Shown here piece after piece: positions 1,194 through 21,026 of a stretch of 25,098 nucleotides of DNA; positions within the stretch are counted from its first letter, which is position 1; each line of letters starts with the position of its first letter. The notes under the pieces are model-generated. The model did not search any database. It was not told the DNA's origin and worked only from the letters and a program-made list of their open reading frames with translations. The stretch is from a virus. The stretch is taken from positions 1-25,098 of IMG/VR virus record IMGVR_UViG_3300005526_000027; one strand, written 5' to 3'. A program made the translations under genes and the position numbers.

Positions 1194-1487
1194 TCACAGC
1201 GGGATGCTGCCGAGATCGCCTTTAACCGGGTGATCAGGGGGATAGTCCTTCGGATCGACTTCCCGCCCTTGCCGTGGCGAGCCGTCAGGGTTCCTGGTGA
1301 TGGCGACGTTCACCCACATCGCGACCTCGCGCAGCTGGCGCAAGAGGTAAGTTCTGTCCGGTCCTTCCGGGACAATGGACACGAGAAGCTGGGCATAGAC
1401 TGTGGTGGCAAAGCGCGCCTGCTGCATCAACGCCACCTGCTCAAGCGTTGGCTGGAGGTAGTCAAACGTCGAGGGGTGCAGTGTCAT
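1194..1487 (-). CDS. Acb2/Tad1 hairpin-like protein (candidate anti-CBASS/anti-Thoeris sponge)
   Basis: A 97-residue protein with a polar N-terminus (MTLHPSTFDYLQPTLEQVALM) and two helices. The second helix and its end (YLLRQLREVAMWVNVAITRNP) match the signature I know from small phage proteins of the Acb2/Tad1 hairpin family, whose consensus is roughly an Ala-Leu-rich helix followed by MW-[AV]-N-x-[AG]-I-x-R-N. The preceding F-x-Y-x-x-PT-x-x-Q segment also matches. Known family members bind cyclic di- and trinucleotides or gcADPR and so blind CBASS or Thoeris immunity; acting as such a sponge here is inference. The start has a clear ribosome site (GGGAGA, 8 bases) and lies 1 base after the previous stop. 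The C-terminus after the hairpin is longer than usual and Pro/Asp-rich (DPKDYPPDHP). Confidence 0.7.
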   Translation of the reverse strand: MTLHPSTFDYLQPTLEQVALMQQARFATTVYAQLLVSIVPEGPDRTYLLRQLREVAMWVNVAITRNPDGSPRQGREVDPKDYPPDHPVKGDLGSIPL

Positions 1488-1488
1488 G

Positions 1489-1779
1489 TTATCTGTCTCC
1501 CAGCAGTTTGCGCATGCCTTGGTCGAAGCCGGCCTTGAAGGCGATGATCTGGGGCGATGGCTCCACGCCCTTGTTGCGCATTTCCATCAGCAGCTGGTTG
1601 ATCAGCTGCATGGCGCCGTCGAGCGCATTGGTGAGCTTGCTGCGCTGCTCGCCCAGCTCGGTGAGGTTGAAACAAGCCATCTGGTAAGCTCGCTTGATGC
1701 GGGCGATGTCCTGGCTATCTTCCACCGGTTCCCTGGGATCATGGCCTTGTGGCGTCGTGCGATCGAGATCGTCGCTCAT
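1489..1779 (-). CDS. Small helical protein, tandem paralogue of the 1776-2006 gene
   Basis: Function unknown, 96 residues. The ATG at 1779 has a strong ribosome site (GGGAGG, 6 bases) and overlaps the upstream stop (ATGA). The N-terminal 30 residues are polar and Asp/Pro-rich (MSDDLDRTTPQGHDPREPVE). The rest is helical, with a region (residues about 45-96) that aligns without large gaps to the neighbouring 76-residue protein. Shared pattern: K-x-x-x-ALD-x-AMQ, then M, then SP, then a Phe/Leu-Asp-x-x-MR and a terminal G-x-R. The two are therefore a duplicated pair. Longer frames in the database-style ORF (start 1989) merely read through the paralogue in another frame. Confidence 0.72.
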   Translation of the reverse strand: MSDDLDRTTPQGHDPREPVEDSQDIARIKRAYQMACFNLTELGEQRSKLTNALDGAMQLINQLLMEMRNKGVEPSPQIIAFKAGFDQGMRKLLGDR

Positions 1780-2006
1780 CTGCTTCCTCCCATCACTGCC
1801 CGCATGGCGATGTCCAGGCGTTCTTTGCAGCCGCTCACCTCGGGCGAAAGGTTGAGCCCCTCTGGCATCCAGGCAATCAGCGCATCCACCGTTTGCATTG
1901 CGCAGTCGAGCGCATGGATCACCTTGGCGGTGTCGGCGCGAACCTGCACCAGCTCGGCGCGCAACTGCGTACACTCGTGCTCGCACCACTCAGCCGGTCT
2001 CGGCAT
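1776..2006 (-). CDS. Small helical protein, first gene of the minus-strand cassette
   Basis: Function unknown, 76 residues, beginning MPRPAEWCEHECTQLRAELV. It carries three Cys (two near the N-terminus, then one in ALDCAMQ and one in SGCKERL). The helical body shares the K-x-x-x-ALD-x-AMQ ... LSPE ... LDIAMR ... G-x-R pattern with the next gene, so they are paralogues. The chosen ATG at 2006 follows a weak ribosome-like stretch (GGGGTGCGGA). Upstream is the divergent promoter region, which makes this the promoter-proximal gene. A frame extending to 2270 would run through the terminase promoter region and gene and is rejected. Confidence 0.7.
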   Translation of the reverse strand: MPRPAEWCEHECTQLRAELVQVRADTAKVIHALDCAMQTVDALIAWMPEGLNLSPEVSGCKERLDIAMRAVMGGSR

Positions 2007-2030
2007 TCCGCACCCCGTATTTGCTTTGCA

Positions 2031-2088: not shown

Positions 2089-3822
2089 ATGAGCAAGAAA
2101 GCCAAGATTACAGAAGACGCCACTCCGATCGATGACGCCCTGGCGGCGGCCACACTCACCGCCATGCGGGCGGAGTTCACCTTGCGGCGCGAGCGCAAGG
2201 CGCAGTCGCAAGAAGGCGGGTTGATCGCGTTTGTAAGATACTTCTGGAAGGTGATCGAGCCCGAGACCAAGCTGGTGGAAGGCTGGGTGCTCTATGCCAT
2301 CTGTCAGCACTTGGAAGCGGTCAGCTTCGGGAAAATCACCAGGCTTCTGATCAATGTCCCTCCAGGCAGCATGAAGAGCCTGATGGTGAACGTGTTCTGG
2401 CCGGCTTTTGAGTGGGGCGCGCTGGGCATGAGTTCGCTGCGCTATGTGAGTTTCTCTTACAGCTCGGGTCTGACCGAAAGAGATAACCTGAAGTTCAAAA
2501 AGCTGATCACGTCCGAGCGCTATCAGGAGATGTGGGGTGACAAGTTCAAGATCGAGAAAGAAGGCGAGATCAAAATCACCAACAACAAGACCGGCTCGAA
2601 GTTCGCCTCGTCGGTCAAAGGCATCGGAACCGGGGAGCGCGGTGACCGGGTCATTATCGATGATCCTCACGACGTCCACAAATCAGAGTCCGATATCGTC
2701 AGGACCGATACCGTTCGATGGTTTCGTGAAACGATCACCGACCGGCTCAACAATCTTAGTGATTCTGCAATCATCATCATCATGCAGCGGGTTCATCAGC
2801 TTGATATTTCAGGATTCATCCTCGAACAAGGGTGGGCCTACTGCCACCTGATGGTGCCGATGGAGTTCGAAGCCGGGCGCGAACCCTACAATACGATCGG
2901 CTGGATCGATCCGCGCACCGAAGAAGGAGACCTGGCATGGCCCGAGCGGTTCTCCCCCGAAGCAGTTGCCAGGATCGAGCAGGAGAAGGGCAGCTTTGCG
3001 TATGCGGGGCAGTACCAGCAGAGACCTGCCCCGCGTGGTGGCGGTATCATCAAGAGAGAGCACTGGAGGCCCTATACCCCAGACGATTGTGGGAAGTTCG
3101 GTGTCCCTTGGCCGAAGTTCCCGGTGATGAGCTATACTGTGCTCTCGTTAGACACCGCCCAAACCGAAAAAAAGCAAAACGACCCGAGCGCGGGCGTGGT
3201 TCTCGGCGTGTGTAGGGATATCTGGGAGAACCGAAGAGTTATTACGATGTGGGGCTGGTCCGAGCGCCTCGAAGTCTACGAACTGGTCAAAAAGATCGAG
3301 GAAACCTGCAAGAAGTTCATCGTCAACCGGGTTTTGATCGAGGACAAAGCCTCCGGGTATCCGGTTGCGCAGGAGCTGCGCCGCCGAGGCAGGACGATCG
3401 CGGACAGCCTCTCGCACAATCCCAAAACCGCCGATCGCGCCGACTTCGGGGTGACGCTGATCACCCCGGAGGGCGACAAGCTTGCGCGCGGTTACGCCGT
3501 GCAGAATCTCTTTGAATGTGGATTGATCTACGCGCCCGCCGAGCCCACCGGCAATGGGGATTTCCTGTTCAAAGACTGGGCCGACAAGATCATCGATGAA
3601 TGTGCCACCGCGCCCAAGGGGCAGTTCGATGATCGCTTCGATGCCATGACCCAGGGATTGCTGCATCTTCGGACGATCGGATTGATCTCGCTCCCCGACG
3701 AGGACGAGATCGATCGCATTGAGGAGAACCGCTATCGCAGCCCGCCGCTTCCGCTCTATCCGGCCTACGGCGGAAGTGTCACTCCATTGCCCCAGGTCAC
3801 GACCGGTGACTGGAATAGGTGA
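2089..3822 (+). CDS. terL: Terminase large subunit (packaging ATPase and nuclease)
   Basis: Packages DNA into the prohead by ATP hydrolysis and cuts concatemers. Residue numbers count from the alternative upstream ATG at 2050. The ATPase domain has a variant P-loop LINVPPGSMKS (100-110), a Walker B strand RVIIDDPHD (200-208) and the conserved QYQQRP segment (321-326) that ends the ATPase half. The nuclease (RNase H-like) domain has the acidic triad positions: VLSLDTAQ (Asp368), VLIEDKASG (Glu431/Asp432) and FDDRFDAMT (Asp527/528/531). Length (577-590 aa) fits phage large terminases. The start at 2089 (MSKKAK) is preferred because the ATG at 2050 sits inside the promoter region; neither has a strong ribosome site. 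No small-terminase gene is recognisable nearby. Its stop overlaps the next GTG. Confidence 0.96.
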   Translation: MSKKAKITEDATPIDDALAAATLTAMRAEFTLRRERKAQSQEGGLIAFVRYFWKVIEPETKLVEGWVLYAICQHLEAVSFGKITRLLINVPPGSMKSLMVNVFWPAFEWGALGMSSLRYVSFSYSSGLTERDNLKFKKLITSERYQEMWGDKFKIEKEGEIKITNNKTGSKFASSVKGIGTGERGDRVIIDDPHDVHKSESDIVRTDTVRWFRETITDRLNNLSDSAIIIIMQRVHQLDISGFILEQGWAYCHLMVPMEFEAGREPYNTIGWIDPRTEEGDLAWPERFSPEAVARIEQEKGSFAYAGQYQQRPAPRGGGIIKREHWRPYTPDDCGKFGVPWPKFPVMSYTVLSLDTAQTEKKQNDPSAGVVLGVCRDIWENRRVITMWGWSERLEVYELVKKIEETCKKFIVNRVLIEDKASGYPVAQELRRRGRTIADSLSHNPKTADRADFGVTLITPEGDKLARGYAVQNLFECGLIYAPAEPTGNGDFLFKDWADKIIDECATAPKGQFDDRFDAMTQGLLHLRTIGLISLPDEDEIDRIEENRYRSPPLPLYPAYGGSVTPLPQVTTGDWNR

Positions 3823-4229: not shown

Positions 4230-5264
4230 ATGCTGATACTCGCCTCGACTTCCGATGTCGTTCAAGTGGTCACTGGCGGCGCCGGTCTGGTTGATGTGCA
4301 CGCCAGCTGGATGGACAACGCCTCGGGCGCGGTGCTGCCCGGACGTACCAATACCGCCAACATCGCGACCGCGACCACCACCACGGTGGTGCCGGCCCCT
4401 GTCGCCCAGGTGCAGCGCAACGTCAAGACTCTTCATATTCGCAACGGTGGCGTCAGTCAGGTCGTCGGCGTGCTGCTTGTCGATCCTACCGGTGCATTCA
4501 AGCTATGGGAGCAGCGCCTGGAGCAGGGCGCCACGTTGCAATACATTGACGAGATCGGCTTCAAGGCGCGGGCCGAGCCCGCAAGAGTCACCGTCCAGAA
4601 GTTCGATGTGGCCGGGAGCTTCACCTATACCCCGACCCCCGGAATGACCTTTGCGACCATCGAATGCATCGGCGGCGGCGGCTCCTCTGGTGACGCAGCT
4701 TGGGGCATCGGTCGCGGGTCTGGTGGCGGTGGCGGCAGCGGCGGGTATTCTCGCAAGCTGGTGTCGGCATCGGACATCGGCGCCTCGCAGCCCGTCACCG
4801 TTGGAGGAGGAGGTACATACGAAAACTCACCCAACGGAGCGCCGGGGGGGTTAAGCGCTGTCGGCACTCTGTGCCGGGCCAATGGCGGCGGTGGTGGCGG
4901 GCACTCGCTTAATGGCGACAACACGCCGGTCGGTGGGCAGCCGGCCAGCACAGCAGGCGCCATCGGCGATATCACGGCAGGCGGCTCCCCCGGCGAGCAA
5001 GGCGGCTATGTGTATTTCCCGGCGGGCTCGGTCAGTCCAGACGACCCGATCATTATTCCTGATGGTGGCAGAGGCGCCTCCGGTCCCTGGGGCGGTGGTG
5101 CACCCATGCCGGCAGTGGGGACGACCGGCTCCGTCGGCGGCATTGCCGCTGGCAAATACGGCTCTGGTGGTAGCGGCGCTGTCAGTAACACGACCGGCGG
5201 CTATCTCGGTCTCGGCGTGGGCTCCGTCGGTCTTGTCTTCATCACCGAGTTCTGCTTCCCGTAG
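4230..5264 (+). CDS. Virion protein: beta module plus glycine-rich fibre domain
   Basis: A two-part protein. Residues 1 to about 125 (MLILASTSD... through IDEIGFK) form a predicted beta-rich module with VDVHASWMDNA, PGRTNT and QRNVKTLHIRN, the same order of motifs as the entire next gene. Residues about 145-345 form a glycine-rich domain (GGGGGSGGYSRKL, IGASQPVTVGGGG, GGIAAGKYGSGGSGAVSN) ending VGLVFITEF, shared with the fibre protein at 18481. Glycine-rich domains of this kind occur in phage receptor-binding tips, so surface exposure is likely. The ATG at 4230 is chosen because it aligns with the start of the paralogue. A GTG at 4218 is possible. Its position between terminase and portal is unusual for a fibre. 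Confidence 0.8.
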   Translation: MLILASTSDVVQVVTGGAGLVDVHASWMDNASGAVLPGRTNTANIATATTTTVVPAPVAQVQRNVKTLHIRNGGVSQVVGVLLVDPTGAFKLWEQRLEQGATLQYIDEIGFKARAEPARVTVQKFDVAGSFTYTPTPGMTFATIECIGGGGSSGDAAWGIGRGSGGGGGSGGYSRKLVSASDIGASQPVTVGGGGTYENSPNGAPGGLSAVGTLCRANGGGGGGHSLNGDNTPVGGQPASTAGAIGDITAGGSPGEQGGYVYFPAGSVSPDDPIIIPDGGRGASGPWGGGAPMPAVGTTGSVGGIAAGKYGSGGSGAVSNTTGGYLGLGVGSVGLVFITEFCFP

Positions 5265-5273
5265 GGATAAACC

Positions 5274-5630
5274 ATGTTGATCCTGGTCGCTGGTGACAAG
5301 CTGTCGGTGATTACTTCGCTCACTGCGGCGGTCGACGTGCACGCCTCCTGGGTGGATAACGCCAGCGTCGTGATCACACCGGGACGAACCAATACCAAGA
5401 TCACGGTTGCAGGAACCGTCACGGTGGTCGCAGGACCGGCGGCCTCGACCCAGCGTAACGTGAAGACGCTTCACGTGCTGAACCGAGACCCAACGATCAC
5501 CTGTGATGTGACCATCCAGCACGACAGCGGCACCGCCATATGTAAGCTGTTCTCGACCACCCTGAAGTCTGGCGATGCTATCGAGATGACTGATCAGGAC
5601 GGGTTCAGAATCCAACGCAAGGCCATCTGA
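5274..5630 (+). CDS. Small beta-rich virion-associated protein, paralogue of previous N-terminus
   Basis: 118 residues, function unknown. It begins MLILVAGDKLSVITSL, with VDVHASWVDNA, PGRTNTKI, ASTQRNVKTLHVLNR and a final strand region (SGDAIEMTDQDGFRIQ). The motif order and spacing match residues 1-125 of the preceding gene, so this is a free-standing copy of the same module. Similar small proteins are common next to portal genes in phages and are probably virion components, but I know of no assigned role. It has a TAGGGAT ribosome site before the ATG, and its stop overlaps the portal start (TGATG), suggesting coupled translation. Confidence 0.8.
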   Translation: MLILVAGDKLSVITSLTAAVDVHASWVDNASVVITPGRTNTKITVAGTVTVVAGPAASTQRNVKTLHVLNRDPTITCDVTIQHDSGTAICKLFSTTLKSGDAIEMTDQDGFRIQRKAI

Positions 5631-16115: not shown

Positions 16116-18008
16116 ATGACCGAAACGGTCGAGATCGTATCCCTCGAAATAACGACCTTTCTGATTGAGGCTGAGCTTCAGCTCACGCCGCCCGATGCCG
16201 AAATCTCGCTGACGACGGAACTAGGCCCGCAAGGCCAGCCTGGACCTCCGGGACCGGCTGGTCAGCCAGGGGCGCCTGGCGTGCCTGGCGTACCAGGTTC
16301 GCAGGGTCCGCCGGGCGCTACAGGCGCGAAGGGCGCTGACAGTACGGTGCCAGGCCCGCCGGGCGCGGTGGGGGCGCAAGGTCCGCAAGGCCCACAGGGA
16401 GCTACAGGCGCAACCGGCCCCACGGGGCCGGTGCCCGAGGCGCCCACTGACGGCCAGCAATACGCGCGGCAGAGCGCGGCATGGACGGTGGTGTCGCTCC
16501 CCAGTGGTGGCGTTGCTCCGGTTGGTGCGCAGTACATCACGGCGGCGACTGACGCGACGCTCACCAACGAGCGAGTGCTGACCAACACTGCAAGCGTTAC
16601 CTGGGACTTTGCGACGGCGGGCCAGGCTAGGGCCGCTGTGCCTATGGGGTTGTTCCAGATAGCGGACGCGGACTTGACCGCGCTCGCGGGGCTCACCGGC
16701 ACCAACGTCATCTACTATCGCTCGGCTGCCGATACCTGGACGCCAGTGACCATTGGCACGGGCCTGACGTTCACGTCTGGCACGCTGACGGCGACGGTGA
16801 CGGGCGGCGGCAACGTCAACAACACTGGCACGCCGGCTAACGGGCAATGGGCGCAGTGGACGGACGCGACGCATATCCAGGGCGTCGCAACGGCATCTAT
16901 GCCGTTTGTGCAAAAAGCCGGCGACACCATGACCGGCACGCTGACCGTACCGACTGTCGTGGTGACCACCAGCCTGACCGCGCCAACGATCACGCCCGCG
17001 ACGGATAGCACCACCAATGTTGCGACTACGGCATTCGTGCAGAGCGCGATCGTTGCTGCTGGAGCTACCGTTGCGATCTCCGATACTCCTCCAGGCTCTC
17101 CGGGGCAGGGCAAACTTTGGTGGGAGACGGATACTGGTAAGCTTTTTATCAACTACAATGACGGCAACTCGACGCAGTGGGTTTCGCTGTTTCCGTTTAC
17201 GAGCACTGGTGGCGGTGGTGCTGCCAACGTCGGCAATGTCGGTACGCCAGCTAATAACCAGATCGCGGTCTGGACCGACCCGACGCATATCCAGGGCAAC
17301 GCTGCTCTTACCTTTGATGGGACCTCGCTAAGAGCCCCGACGGTCACGCCGGGCAGTGATAGCTCAAATCAAGTCGCGACCACGGCGTTCGTGCAGTCTG
17401 CGCTGGGTGCCGCCGGGTTCTCGACCGGAGACGCCAAGCTCACGCTGAAGACCGTCGCTGATGCCGGTTGGGTGCTGATGAACGACGGCACCATCGGCGA
17501 TGCGTCGAGCGGTGCCTCGTCCCGCGCCAATGCTGACTGTCAGGCGTTGTTCACGTTGCTCTGGAACAACATCACTGACCCTTATGCCACGGTGTCGAGT
17601 GGTCGTGGCGCCAACGCGGCGGCGGATTGGGCGGCGCACAAAAAGATTACGTTAACCCGGCAGCTGGGTCGCACGCTGGCTATAGGCGGTGCCGGTGCCG
17701 GCCTCACCAGTCGTCCGCTTGGCGGTTATCTGGGCGAAGAAAGCCACACCCAGAGCGTCGGCGAGATGGCGGCGCATGGTCACACTGGTGGTGTCGGCGG
17801 CAGCACGGCCAATAACTATGTCTACAGCTACGGCGGCACAACCATCACCTATGACGGCTATCTAGCCATAGCCCAAGCTTTCGTGACCTACCCTATGGAC
17901 GTCACCAATGGCTTGTCCGCCTATGTCACCATTAACGGTAACGGCAGCAGTACGCCCGCCAACGTCATGCAGCCAACCTCGTTCTGGAACATCATGATCA
18001 AGCTGTGA
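16116..18008 (+). CDS. Tail fibre with collagen-like stalk and collar-like tip
   Basis: 630 residues, probably a trimeric fibre. In order: short N-terminal attachment region (1-36); collagen-like Gly-X-Y triplets (37-75, then a STVP break, then 80-106); [19 protein letters not shown] and, later, [19 protein letters not shown] (two copies of one module); [14 protein letters not shown], a fibre motif shared with the 18481 gene; [14 protein letters not shown] and [12 protein letters not shown] (another duplicated module). The C-terminal domain ([20 protein letters not shown] ... [14 protein letters not shown] ... [12 protein letters not shown] ... [18 protein letters not shown] ... [13 protein letters not shown]) is of phage tail-collar type. 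The ribosome site GAGGG precedes ATG 16116. Receptor binding is inferred from architecture. Confidence 0.87.
16224..16433 (+). repeat. Collagen-like Gly-X-Y coding repeat
   Basis: About 13 triplets, a 4-residue interruption (STVP) and about 9 more triplets. The positions X and Y are often Pro, Gln or Ala. The repeat encodes the trimeric collagen-like rod of the fibre; nucleotide units GGNCCNCAN vary enough to limit slippage. Confidence 0.8.
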
Positions 18009-18016
18009 GGGTATCA

Positions 18017-18478
18017 ATGCGGATGCTGCAGCAACATGGAGGTCTGGTTTTCGTTCGCATCGACGGTGACACGTATATGGAGACGCCGGAAAACTTCGAA
18101 GGTGACTACGGCTCGCCCATGCCGGCGCTGGCGTCGTCTTTCGATGAGCGGGTGTACGAGCCGGGTAAGCGTCATGCGCTGTCGTTCGAGAACAGCGTGG
18201 TGGATGGCGGCGAGATGCCCTGGCCGGAAGGCGATGCGATCATTGAGGCGGCTCCTGCGCTAATAAGCAAGCAGGCGACCCGCCGGCAAGCAGAACAGGA
18301 AGCGCAGCAGCAACAAGCGCAGCAGGTCGTGATGGTGGATCGAGCGCAGGCAGAAGCTGAGCTTGCTGAGCTGCAGCGTGGGTTGGATGCGCTGACGACG
18401 CGGGAGGAGAAGAATGCGCTGCTCAAGAAGTTCAATGATGAGCGGAGAGCGCGAGAAGCCGCGCGAGTGAGGAGCTAA
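18017..18478 (+). CDS. Fibre-linked protein with coiled-coil tail, possible assembly partner
   Basis: 153 residues. Two parts: an N-terminal domain (MLQQHGGLVFVRIDGDTYME ... SSFDERVYEPGKRHALSFEN) of beta character, and a C-terminal Gln/Ala/Glu-rich coiled coil (about 95-150: TRRQAEQEAQQQQAQQ, AELAELQRGLDALTTREEK). It lies between two fibre genes and overlaps none, as tail-fibre assembly proteins often do; that role is inferred only from position and coiled coil. A GTG at 18005 overlaps the fibre stop, but the ATG at 18017 has a better ribosome site (GAGG, 7 bases). Its stop is 2 bases before the next ATG. Confidence 0.72.
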   Translation: MRMLQQHGGLVFVRIDGDTYMETPENFEGDYGSPMPALASSFDERVYEPGKRHALSFENSVVDGGEMPWPEGDAIIEAAPALISKQATRRQAEQEAQQQQAQQVVMVDRAQAEAELAELQRGLDALTTREEKNALLKKFNDERRAREAARVRS

Positions 18479-18480
18479 GG

Positions 18481-19596
18481 ATGGCGTATGACTTTCCAGC
18501 ATCGCCGGTTGCGGGGCAGCTGTTCACGCCAGCTGGCGGGCCGAGCTACACCTGGAACGGCTATGCCTGGGATATCATAAGCTCGGGGGTTTTGGTCGTC
18601 ACCAAGGTGATCACGGCGAGCGGGACGTATACGCCATCTTTTAATCTGATCTCGGCCCTCGTGGAATGTGTGGGCGGCGGAGGTGCGGGTGGTGGTGCGG
18701 CGGCGAGTGCGAGCTTTGTCTATACCGGTGGTGGCGGTGGTTCTGGCGGTTACTCACGCAAGCTACTCACAGCCGCGCAGATCGGAGCGAGCCAGACTGT
18801 TACGATTGGTATTGCCGGCGCTGCTAGCACAGGTAGCGGTGGTGCTGGTAGCGCTACGAGTTTTGGCACGTTCTGCGTCGCCAATGGTGGTGGGGGCGGA
18901 GCACTGAACAGCAGTGGCGGGGCTGGCGGTGTTGTGGCGGGTGCCGTGGGGGACGTTGTGGCGGCGGGTGCTCCCGGCAGTGCGGGAGGAAACGTCACTT
19001 CTGCTACGGGCGCCTATGGTGGCGGTCTCGGTGGTTCCAGTATCTTTGGTGGCGGCGGTCAAAGTATCAATGCGAACAGTGGTGGTGTTTCTTACGGGAT
19101 TGCTGCAGCCAACTATGGCAGTGGTGGCAGCGGCGGTGTTTCGAACAATCAGGCAGCCGTCGCCCCTCAAGGTGGCCCTGGATCGGCTGGCGTCATTGTC
19201 GTTACCGAATACATTGGGCTGAGTTCTTCGGCGGTCGCACTGACGCAGTACGTGGCCAAGACCGGCGACACCATGACGGGTACGCTGACGGCGACCACGG
19301 CAGCGCTCACGAGTGGCGTAGCGGCAAACTTCTCTGCCTGTCAGAACTTCACCGTGGCGCTGGCTGCAGCGTTCACGGTCGCCAATCCTTCCGCCAATCC
19401 ACCGGTCGGAACCTATATTGCGATCACCGTGGACATGACGATAGGGGCGGCGCTCAGCTGGGGCTCCAACTTCAAGGGGCTTGCGAGCTATACGCAGAGC
19501 ACTTGGACTGCCGGCACGATGCGCGATCATCTGGTGTTTCGCTGGAGTGGCACAACGTATGACCTCGTGGGAGCCGCCAAGGGGATCAATCAGTGA
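18481..19596 (+). CDS. Glycine-rich tail fibre / receptor-binding protein
   Basis: 371 residues. N-terminal module MAYDFPASPVAGQLFTPAG ... YTWNGYAWDI is a common phage fibre start (FPxSPxxGQ ... Y-x-W-x-G-x-x-W). Residues about 61-245 form the glycine-rich domain (GGGGGSGGYSRKL, IGASQTVTIG, GGGLGGSSIFGGGG, NYGSGGSGGVSNN), homologous to the domain in the gene at 4230. GDTMTGTLT follows (a module also in the collagen fibre) and then a C-terminal beta domain (FTVALAAAFTVAN ... GTYIAITVDM ... FRWSGTTYDLVGAAKG). Glycine-rich domains of this type form compact receptor-binding tips in phages such as T4-like adhesins. Starts 2 bases after the previous stop with GAGGAG upstream. Confidence 0.84.
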   Translation: MAYDFPASPVAGQLFTPAGGPSYTWNGYAWDIISSGVLVVTKVITASGTYTPSFNLISALVECVGGGGAGGGAAASASFVYTGGGGGSGGYSRKLLTAAQIGASQTVTIGIAGAASTGSGGAGSATSFGTFCVANGGGGGALNSSGGAGGVVAGAVGDVVAAGAPGSAGGNVTSATGAYGGGLGGSSIFGGGGQSINANSGGVSYGIAAANYGSGGSGGVSNNQAAVAPQGGPGSAGVIVVTEYIGLSSSAVALTQYVAKTGDTMTGTLTATTAALTSGVAANFSACQNFTVALAAAFTVANPSANPPVGTYIAITVDMTIGAALSWGSNFKGLASYTQSTWTAGTMRDHLVFRWSGTTYDLVGAAKGINQ

Positions 19597-21026
19597 TTTT
19601 TCCTTTGATCCCGCCAGTCAGCACAACTCCACCGGTCTATGCCACGGGCGGGATTATCACGACTAATGGACCGTGGAGGGTTCATACCTTTACGGCTCTC
19701 GGTGCCAGTACCTTTCAGGCCGTTGGTGGTCCCAGCGCGTTTGACCTGGAGTATCTGGTGGTCGCTGGCGGCGGCGGCGGCGGAGGGTCTAACACCGGTA
19801 GTGCGCTTGGCGGGGGTGGCGGTGCCGGTGGCATGTTGGAGGGTACGTTATCTCTGGGGGCTGGAACGTATCAGGTCGCTGTAGGCGGCCCTGGTGGTGG
19901 TGGTTCATATAGTCAGGGCTATGGAGGAGAGGGCGGAGCCTCTGCGTTTGACAATGGCGGCCCGAAGCAGATTCTCACGCGCGGTGGTGGCGGCGGAGGT
20001 TGGTGTTATTGGGATGGCAGCACCTACTACTACGGAGCCGGCGGTCAAGGTGGCGGATCGGGAGGTGGTAGAGCATACGACACTTACTACGGTTCAGGCG
20101 GTGGGGGAGGGACACCGGGCCAAGGCAACGACGGGGGAAGCAGCGTCTCTGGCGGCAACGGCAGTGGTGGCGGCGGCAAGGGATCGGCAGGGGCTTACGC
20201 CTCAACAGGAGGCGTGGGGAAGGTAAACTCAATCGACGGAAATGCGACGACCTATGCTGCTGGCGGCTATACGACCGGGATTGCCGGGGCGAGTAGCCGA
20301 GGCAACGGCGGTGGAGGGGGCTACAACAGCAACGGCTCCCAAGGCGGCTCAGGCATCGTCATCGTAAGATATCGCGGGACGACACCGCAGGAAACAGTGG
20401 GTGGCAACGATTACTACACGAGCTGTTTGTTGCATTTGGATAGCAATCTTGTTGACTCGTCCATGTGGCAGCGTGGTGGTTGGGGCCAGAACGGCAACGT
20501 CACGATAGACACCACGCAATCAAAGTTCGGCGGGGCTTCGGCGCGCTTCGTCGGCAATGGGTACATGTATGCCGCTACTGACATAGCTGCTTTTGGAACG
20601 GGTGATTTTGCGATTGATTTTTGGGTTCGGTTCGCCTCGATCGGCTCTCAGATCATCTACGATGGACGTGGTACCGGCAGCGACCTTGCTCCAGTGATTT
20701 ATCTGAATGCTGCTGGCAATGTTCTTGAGTACTTTGTGGGCGGGACTCTCAGGCAGTCGACATTCTCGCCAGTGGCGAACACCTGGTATCACGTTGCGGT
20801 CACGAGAAACGGAACGGTCGGAAGATTGTTCGTGAATGGCGTTCAACAGGGCGCGACGTTTTCGGACATCAATAACTTCGCTGCTATTGCGAGCAGACCG
20901 TTAGTCGGCACGGCTTATGATGGCAGCTCTTCTCCTGTCAATGGGTGGGTTGAGGAGCTGAGGATCACCAAGGGCAAGCCGAGATGGACGGCGAACTTCA
21001 CGCCGCCCACGGCGCCGTATTCCTGA
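19593..21026 (+). CDS. Tail fibre: glycine-rich domain plus LamG-like lectin domain
   Basis: 477 residues with a GTG start overlapping the previous stop. Residues about 20-262 are a glycine-rich domain of the second type (WRVHTFTALGASTF ... LEYLVVAGGGGGGGS ... GGGGGAGG ... YQVAVGGPGGGG ... GIVIVRYRG). Residues about 275-477 are a concanavalin-type jelly roll (LamG-like): LLHLDSNLVDSS, SKFGGASARF, DFAIDFWVRF, NTWYHVAVTRNGT, RLFVNGVQQG and GWVEELRITKGKPRWTANF. This lectin end normally recognises surface glycans, so it is likely a receptor-binding protein. The catalytic residues of glycosidases are not evident. Its first segment is only about 20 residues and may attach to another fibre. Confidence 0.86.
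   Translation: MIFPLIPPVSTTPPVYATGGIITTNGPWRVHTFTALGASTFQAVGGPSAFDLEYLVVAGGGGGGGSNTGSALGGGGGAGGMLEGTLSLGAGTYQVAVGGPGGGGSYSQGYGGEGGASAFDNGGPKQILTRGGGGGGWCYWDGSTYYYGAGGQGGGSGGGRAYDTYYGSGGGGGTPGQGNDGGSSVSGGNGSGGGGKGSAGAYASTGGVGKVNSIDGNATTYAAGGYTTGIAGASSRGNGGGGGYNSNGSQGGSGIVIVRYRGTTPQETVGGNDYYTSCLLHLDSNLVDSSMWQRGGWGQNGNVTIDTTQSKFGGASARFVGNGYMYAATDIAAFGTGDFAIDFWVRFASIGSQIIYDGRGTGSDLAPVIYLNAAGNVLEYFVGGTLRQSTFSPVANTWYHVAVTRNGTVGRLFVNGVQQGATFSDINNFAAIASRPLVGTAYDGSSSPVNGWVEELRITKGKPRWTANFTPPTAPYS

Follow-up and report, generated by a model that had tools for sequence, protein, structure and literature searches.

Acb2/Tad1 ‘sponge’ proteins are used by phages to soak up bacterial alarm nucleotides. The gene at positions 1194 to 1487 (minus strand) of the window, that is, of the whole 25,098-nucleotide stretch analysed here, which is part of the genome of an uncultivated phage whose portal and adaptor are of the SU10 type, is likely to encode such a nucleotide sponge, one that belongs to the Acb2/Tad1-hairpin superfamily. 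Together with its relatives the protein constitutes a new clade of this superfamily, and a search of the open literature, most subscription journals apart, found no description of either the clade or the C-terminal tail that some of its members bear. In this regard, knowledge of the superfamily's sponges comes from a few structures, no function is listed for PHROG 1454, to which the protein is best matched, and in viral contigs the clade itself accounts for 270 or more related stretches.

The gene and its protein

The open reading frame that a first-pass annotation, made by eye, had placed at 1194 to 1487 proved exact in its limits. The gene, its signals and the parts of its protein are as follows.

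1194 to 1487, minus strand: hairpin gene of the Acb2/Tad1 type, 97 amino acids, ATG start (from the open reading frame list; Pfam, PHROG and relatives)
1496 to 1501, minus strand: Shine–Dalgarno sequence GGGAGA, 8 bases 5′ of the ATG, read from the sequence
1293 to 1460, minus strand: two-helix hairpin domain, residues 10–65 (PF24729 profile positions 2–58 of 58; AlphaFold helices)
1272 to 1292, minus strand: proximal C-terminal segment N-P-D-G-S-P-R, residues 66–72 (residues conserved in relatives)
1197 to 1247, minus strand: distal tail DYPPDHPVKGDLGSIPL, residues 81–97, a module also found on other phage proteins and predicted with low confidence
1489 to 1779, minus strand: s6, the preceding small gene, 96 amino acids, which stands next to the hairpin also in contig L019

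The stop codon of s6 and the start of the hairpin gene abut as TAACATG, with the TAA one base ahead of the ATG. Given this junction and the GGGAGA sequence, the hairpin gene looks to be translated and coupled to s6, the two probably being translated together.

Both of the motifs from which the family had been proposed are present, namely the N-terminal F8-D-Y10-L-Q-P13-T14-L-E-Q17 and the second motif E54-VAMWVNVAITRN. The latter had been mistaken for the end of the protein; EVAMWVNVAITRN in fact closes the hairpin domain, and a further 31 residues then run to the C-terminus. Only nine residues lie N-terminal to the domain, and no strands are predicted among them. Across 68 distinct relatives the invariant residues are P13, M21, R25, P40, G42, P43, D44, T46, R50, R53, W58, N60, R65, G69 and P71. 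The last two of these belong to the proximal segment, residues 66–72, which is common to tailed and tailless relatives alike (G69 and P71 in 68/68, R72 in 67/68).

Assignment to the Acb2/Tad1 hairpin superfamily

The single Pfam match of the protein is to PF24729 (Acb2_Tad1_hairpin), with E 7.7e-4 over profile positions 2–58 of 58, its own score of 20 bits falling under the curated cut-off of 27 bits. Relatives that are 55–75% identical to it pass this cut-off, for example those in L019 (40.2 bits) and L018 (38.5 bits), both 55–60% identical to the window protein, and the cut-off is passed in 13 of 14 related contigs. Moreover, each of the 13 proteins in the first alignment has a PF24729 match, the best at 1.7e-11. 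A scan of viral contigs yielded 16 relatives of the window protein, and a scan with their profile yielded 270 related stretches. The best PHROG is 1454 (E 1.5e-9), which is annotated as of unknown function, and PHROG 717 is not reported. The observation itself is thus confirmed and lies beyond chance, and the assignment to the Acb2/Tad1 family, which had been made by eye, is upheld by the HMM match, by intermediate relatives and by the predicted fold. The protein is a member of the Acb2/Tad1 hairpin superfamily on these three grounds taken together. Two outcomes that would have spoken against the by-eye assignment, a lack of any HMM match and a predicted fold with no two-helix hairpin, were looked for and did not arise.

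The connection to individual characterised sponges is more remote. With a profile built from the window's clade only, Vs.4 of phage T4 cannot be told from shuffled sequence, and what links the clade to Vs.4 is therefore the Pfam family together with intermediate relatives; an hhalign comparison of profile A4 with Vs.4 gives a partial alignment at probability 69. Against the PDB, the window-clade profiles A1 and A4 reach no sponge, and the sequence of the window protein gives chance matches only (thymidylate kinase). A composite profile of the window's relatives with proteins of Lactococcus, Arthrobacter, Gordonia, Mycobacterium, Paenibacillus and Streptomyces phages, T4 being left out, reaches PDB 9ptq, ‘Acb2 homolog 43’, at 8e-7. 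A profile that included Vs.4 would be circular for that protein, and so was not used as evidence on Vs.4. An NCBIfam search gave no match and a plasmid search gave two weak ones. Among 397 genomes of the order to which the Rhizobiales record belongs, the hairpin occurs only in the genome already known, and the tail in none.

The closest known system is T4 Vs.4/Acb2 (PDB 7uq2; 8h2j, 8h2x; PHROG 717), which has the PF24729 hairpin and is the best fold match in the PDB. The window protein shares with Vs.4 an N-terminal tyrosine (Y8, here Y10), a basic residue 15 positions on (K23, here R25), a helix-cap threonine (T12, here T14) and, in helix 2, the MW motif. Unlike Vs.4/Acb2, its hairpin is some 20 residues shorter between the helices, it falls in PHROG 1454 rather than 717, H11, R79 and F82 are replaced, there is an extra tail, and the direct profile match of the clade to Vs.4 is not significant. 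Judged by its PHROG, by the failure of the clade profile to reach Vs.4 above shuffles and by its residues at the cGAMP-contact positions, the protein lies outside Acb2 sensu stricto. With Tad1 (CbTad1, PDB 8kbf) it has in common a hairpin of the same Pfam family and a conserved C-terminal segment after helix 2; unlike Tad1 it is without the N-terminal β-sheet domain, which places it outside Tad1 sensu stricto, and the fold score is weak (Z 4.7). In 9ptq, for which no paper was found, there is likewise a short hairpin, with a PEGREK loop resembling PEGPDR of the window protein, although the two sequences are remote. Finally, the nearest matches in annotated phages are PHROG 1454-type proteins of Lactococcus CHPC971/P1046, Arthrobacter Mimi and Paenibacillus Sitara (~26–32% identity over the hairpin), which are annotated as hypothetical and, unlike the window protein, lack the YPxDHPxxGDLGSxPL tail.

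As a separate observation, cyanophage S-2L has an unannotated open reading frame, MSITNDELHTRFTYHPVKEGQ...EEACFWANAGVARRT, at about 375–590 of L104 (MW334946, about 35200–35415), which looks like a further member of the hairpin family.

Predicted fold

AlphaFold (41 sequences) returns helices at residues 15–38 and 43–64 with pLDDT above 90; confidence is low at the C-terminus. The protein is thus confidently predicted to be a two-helix antiparallel hairpin, as the proposed family would have it, and its distal tail is probably disordered. When the prediction was compared by Foldseek with viral models, Acb2/Tad1 hairpin proteins took all of the first 13 places (probability 0.95–1.00). Against 350,542 PDB chains, rank 1 is T4 Vs.4 (Acb2) with cGAMP (probability 0.93, E 0.97), and Acb2 follows at rank 4 (probability 0.60); these matches are to be read with the caution that Foldseek E-values against the PDB are around 1 and that two-helix hairpins are common. 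Indeed, the VIA Z-scores of 6.9 for Vs.4, 6.3 for Acb2 and 4.7 for CbTad1 are of a size that unrelated hairpins also reach. The structure 9ptq is not among the Foldseek matches listed, which carries no weight either way. The family is settled by fold and sequence family jointly, the fold alone being insufficient.

The nucleotide pocket and its ligand

In Vs.4 the stacking on cGAMP is by Y8 and F82, and the polar contacts are made by Y8, H11, K23 and R79; the hexamer is held by L29, A66, A73 and A77, and T12 acts as a helix cap (PMC10097602). By their Pfam match ranges, Y10 of the window protein and Y8 of T4 both fall at PF24729 profile position 2. R25 takes the position of K23, being 15 residues past Y10 with the same spacing as Y8–K23, and the cap T12 corresponds to T14. 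These positions are conserved among the 68 relatives: Y10 in 65, R25 in all, and T, S or N at the cap in 67. H11, R79 and F82 of Vs.4 correspond to P13, V61 and T64, where relatives have V or I at 61 and T or S at 64. Hence two of the five cGAMP contacts of Vs.4 have counterparts in the window protein and three differ.

Since these three contact positions differ, cGAMP or cA3 is not established as the ligand, and the replacement of the H11, R79 and F82 contacts indicates that the ligand is probably other than that of T4 Vs.4. The window protein would then be a sponge with a changed ligand. As part of the Vs.4 pocket is kept and the rest replaced, the clade stands out as one whose ligand may well be new.

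By analogy with Vs.4 and Acb2, the short two-helix protomers would assemble into a hexamer, in which pockets between protomers might be lined by Y10 and R25 together with the conserved R50, R53, N60, R65 and R72 in or after helix 2. Such a sponge would bind, without cleaving it, an alarm nucleotide made by a host defence such as CBASS or Thoeris, and with the nucleotide captured the effectors of that defence would stay off. The distal tail is a separate motif, one at the level of the protein, that has been added onto the sponge.

A rather unlikely variant is that the protein is a Tad1-like anti-Thoeris sponge, whose ligand is a cyclic ADP-ribose isomer and not a CBASS nucleotide, and in which the invariant segment after helix 2 helps to close the pocket, just as the C-terminal tail of Tad1 contributes to the pocket of that protein (PMC12043709). 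The replacement of the aromatic F82 clamp and the near invariance of R65...G69-S-P71-R72 after the hairpin would both accord with this. Against it, the four-strand N-terminal sheet of Tad1 is absent, just nine residues standing before the hairpin, and CbTad1 is the lowest of the three structural references.

Genome setting

Two further genes near the hairpin gene are needed here.

2089 to 3822, plus strand: terminase large subunit (TerL), divergent from the cassette (phrog_38, E 1e-73; PF17289)
1776 to 2009, minus strand: s7, the first small gene, 77 amino acids, a paralogue of s6 that recurs near TerL in related phages

TerL, by which related phages were recognised, is at most ~41% identical to its best annotated-phage matches listed. 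Every contig examined with a TerL 76–90% identical to that of the window has a hairpin gene, which belongs to either subfamily A or subfamily B; that this is always so is partly selection, because those contigs were mostly reached through hairpin or tail searches. The turnover of the place, strand and subfamily of the hairpin in these contigs is not a selection effect. The gene lies 5′ of TerL on the opposite strand in the window, L019 and L113, and 5′ of TerL on the same strand, at distances that vary, in L009, L020, L024, L031, L034, L040, L112 and L119; it lies just 3′ of TerL in L027 and further 3′ in L111. Near the hairpin of most other relatives no window gene was found.

This turnover bears on the possibility that the protein has the fold and ancestry of the hairpin family but is no immune sponge, and instead serves phage physiology by binding a housekeeping nucleotide or some protein of the phage or its host. 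Such a role would fit the listing of PHROG 1454 as of unknown function, the loss of three of the five Vs.4 cGAMP contacts, and a tail that suggests protein–protein contact. It is nonetheless unlikely, in that the hairpin changes position, strand and subfamily around a stable TerL–portal block as an accessory counter-defence gene would, and the characterised relatives Vs.4, Acb2 and Tad1 are sponges.

For none of the six other small genes of the cassette (367–2009, the truncated gene at 1–363 being left out) does Pfam or PHROG give a significant match of known function. As no neighbour looks like a known anti-defence gene, the first-pass suggestion of an anti-defence island is unsupported, and that interpretation as a whole is partly supported; uncharacterised anti-defence genes may be present among the neighbours.

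The paralogy of s6 and s7 is seen by BLASTP (32% over 56 amino acids, E 1e-8), and the tandem pair (1489–2009, minus strand) recurs beside TerL in related phages. Elsewhere in the window, two adjacent genes at 4230–5630 (plus strand) have a similar N-terminal domain (MLILASTSDVVQVVTGG... and MLILVAGDKLSVITSL...), the first having also a glycine-rich domain. The tail-fibre protein at 16116–18008 (plus strand) contains a collagen-like repeat, and 3′ of its gene (region 16116–21026, plus strand) come two proteins of fibre type, both rich in glycine, one of which has a lectin-like Laminin_G_3 domain.

The distal C-terminal tail

The Pro/Asp-rich C-terminus had been called unusual, and it is both real and unusual; yet it is conserved and recurs in other phages. 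The motif YPxDHPxxGDLGSxPL, followed directly by the stop codon, ends 11 of the 68 distinct relatives after a linker of varying length. In a motif scan of the collection the same tail also ends three hairpins of another subfamily (L111, L112 and L119); the two of these that were scanned score 39.2 and 49.3 bits to PF24729, with PHROG 717, the source group of the Vs.4 homologues, as the best PHROG. Moreover, it ends two unrelated proteins that have no hairpin match.

L027 2171 to 2578, minus strand: tail-bearing non-hairpin protein, 135 amino acids (L027/L110)
L113 9284 to 9544, minus strand: tail-bearing non-hairpin protein, 86 amino acids

In both phages that have a non-hairpin carrier (L027 and L113) the phage's own hairpin is tailless, and in each of 12 tailed contigs a single tail occurs alongside a single hairpin. 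An additional pattern match, in G398, was rejected as a tail, since it reads GDFG.

Over 136 pairs of tails pS is 0.63 against a pN of 0.16, with pS exceeding pN in 135; the invariant Leu and the invariant Gly are each encoded by four different codons, and 3′ of the stop codon the DNA is unlike from one to another, with no visible conservation. Because pS greatly exceeds pN and the DNA past the stop is dissimilar, selection acts on the tail peptide; in other words, as read from its substitutions, the distal tail is selected at the protein level. Synonymous sites that vary so freely make it most improbable that the tail is a mere recombination joint, conserved 3′ DNA for the swapping of genes with no function in the protein, even if a joint of this kind could account for the same tail on unrelated proteins and for its single occurrence in each phage contig.

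A tree built solely from the hairpin part, which is poorly resolved and has few columns, requires six changes of the tail. A single origin on this tree is not favoured, being found in 0 of 200 bootstrap trees, again from few columns. No tail remnants were seen 3′ of the stop codon in ten tailless relatives, a tblastn search of annotated phages with the tail gave no match, and looser tail patterns gave no further carrier beyond chance matches.

With regard to the role of the tail, a docking or targeting peptide is more likely than the alternative of a pocket lid. More specifically, and tentatively, YPxDHPxxGDLGSxPL-COOH could be a transferable docking tag on two sponge subfamilies and on unrelated small proteins, so that all of these reach a single shared partner, of the host or of the phage, such as a site of alarm-nucleotide synthesis. 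In both cases seen of a tailless sponge in a tag-bearing phage, it is a second protein that has the tag. With one short tail on sponges of two subfamilies and also on two unrelated proteins, it may be that counter-defence proteins are sent to a particular place in the cell instead of simply floating in it.

A further copy of the tail, SLPGYHPVPGDLGSVPL, is found at 5210–5260 (minus strand) of L107, in a frame that is without a clear start and overlaps another open frame; it is perhaps the remnant of a tailed gene.
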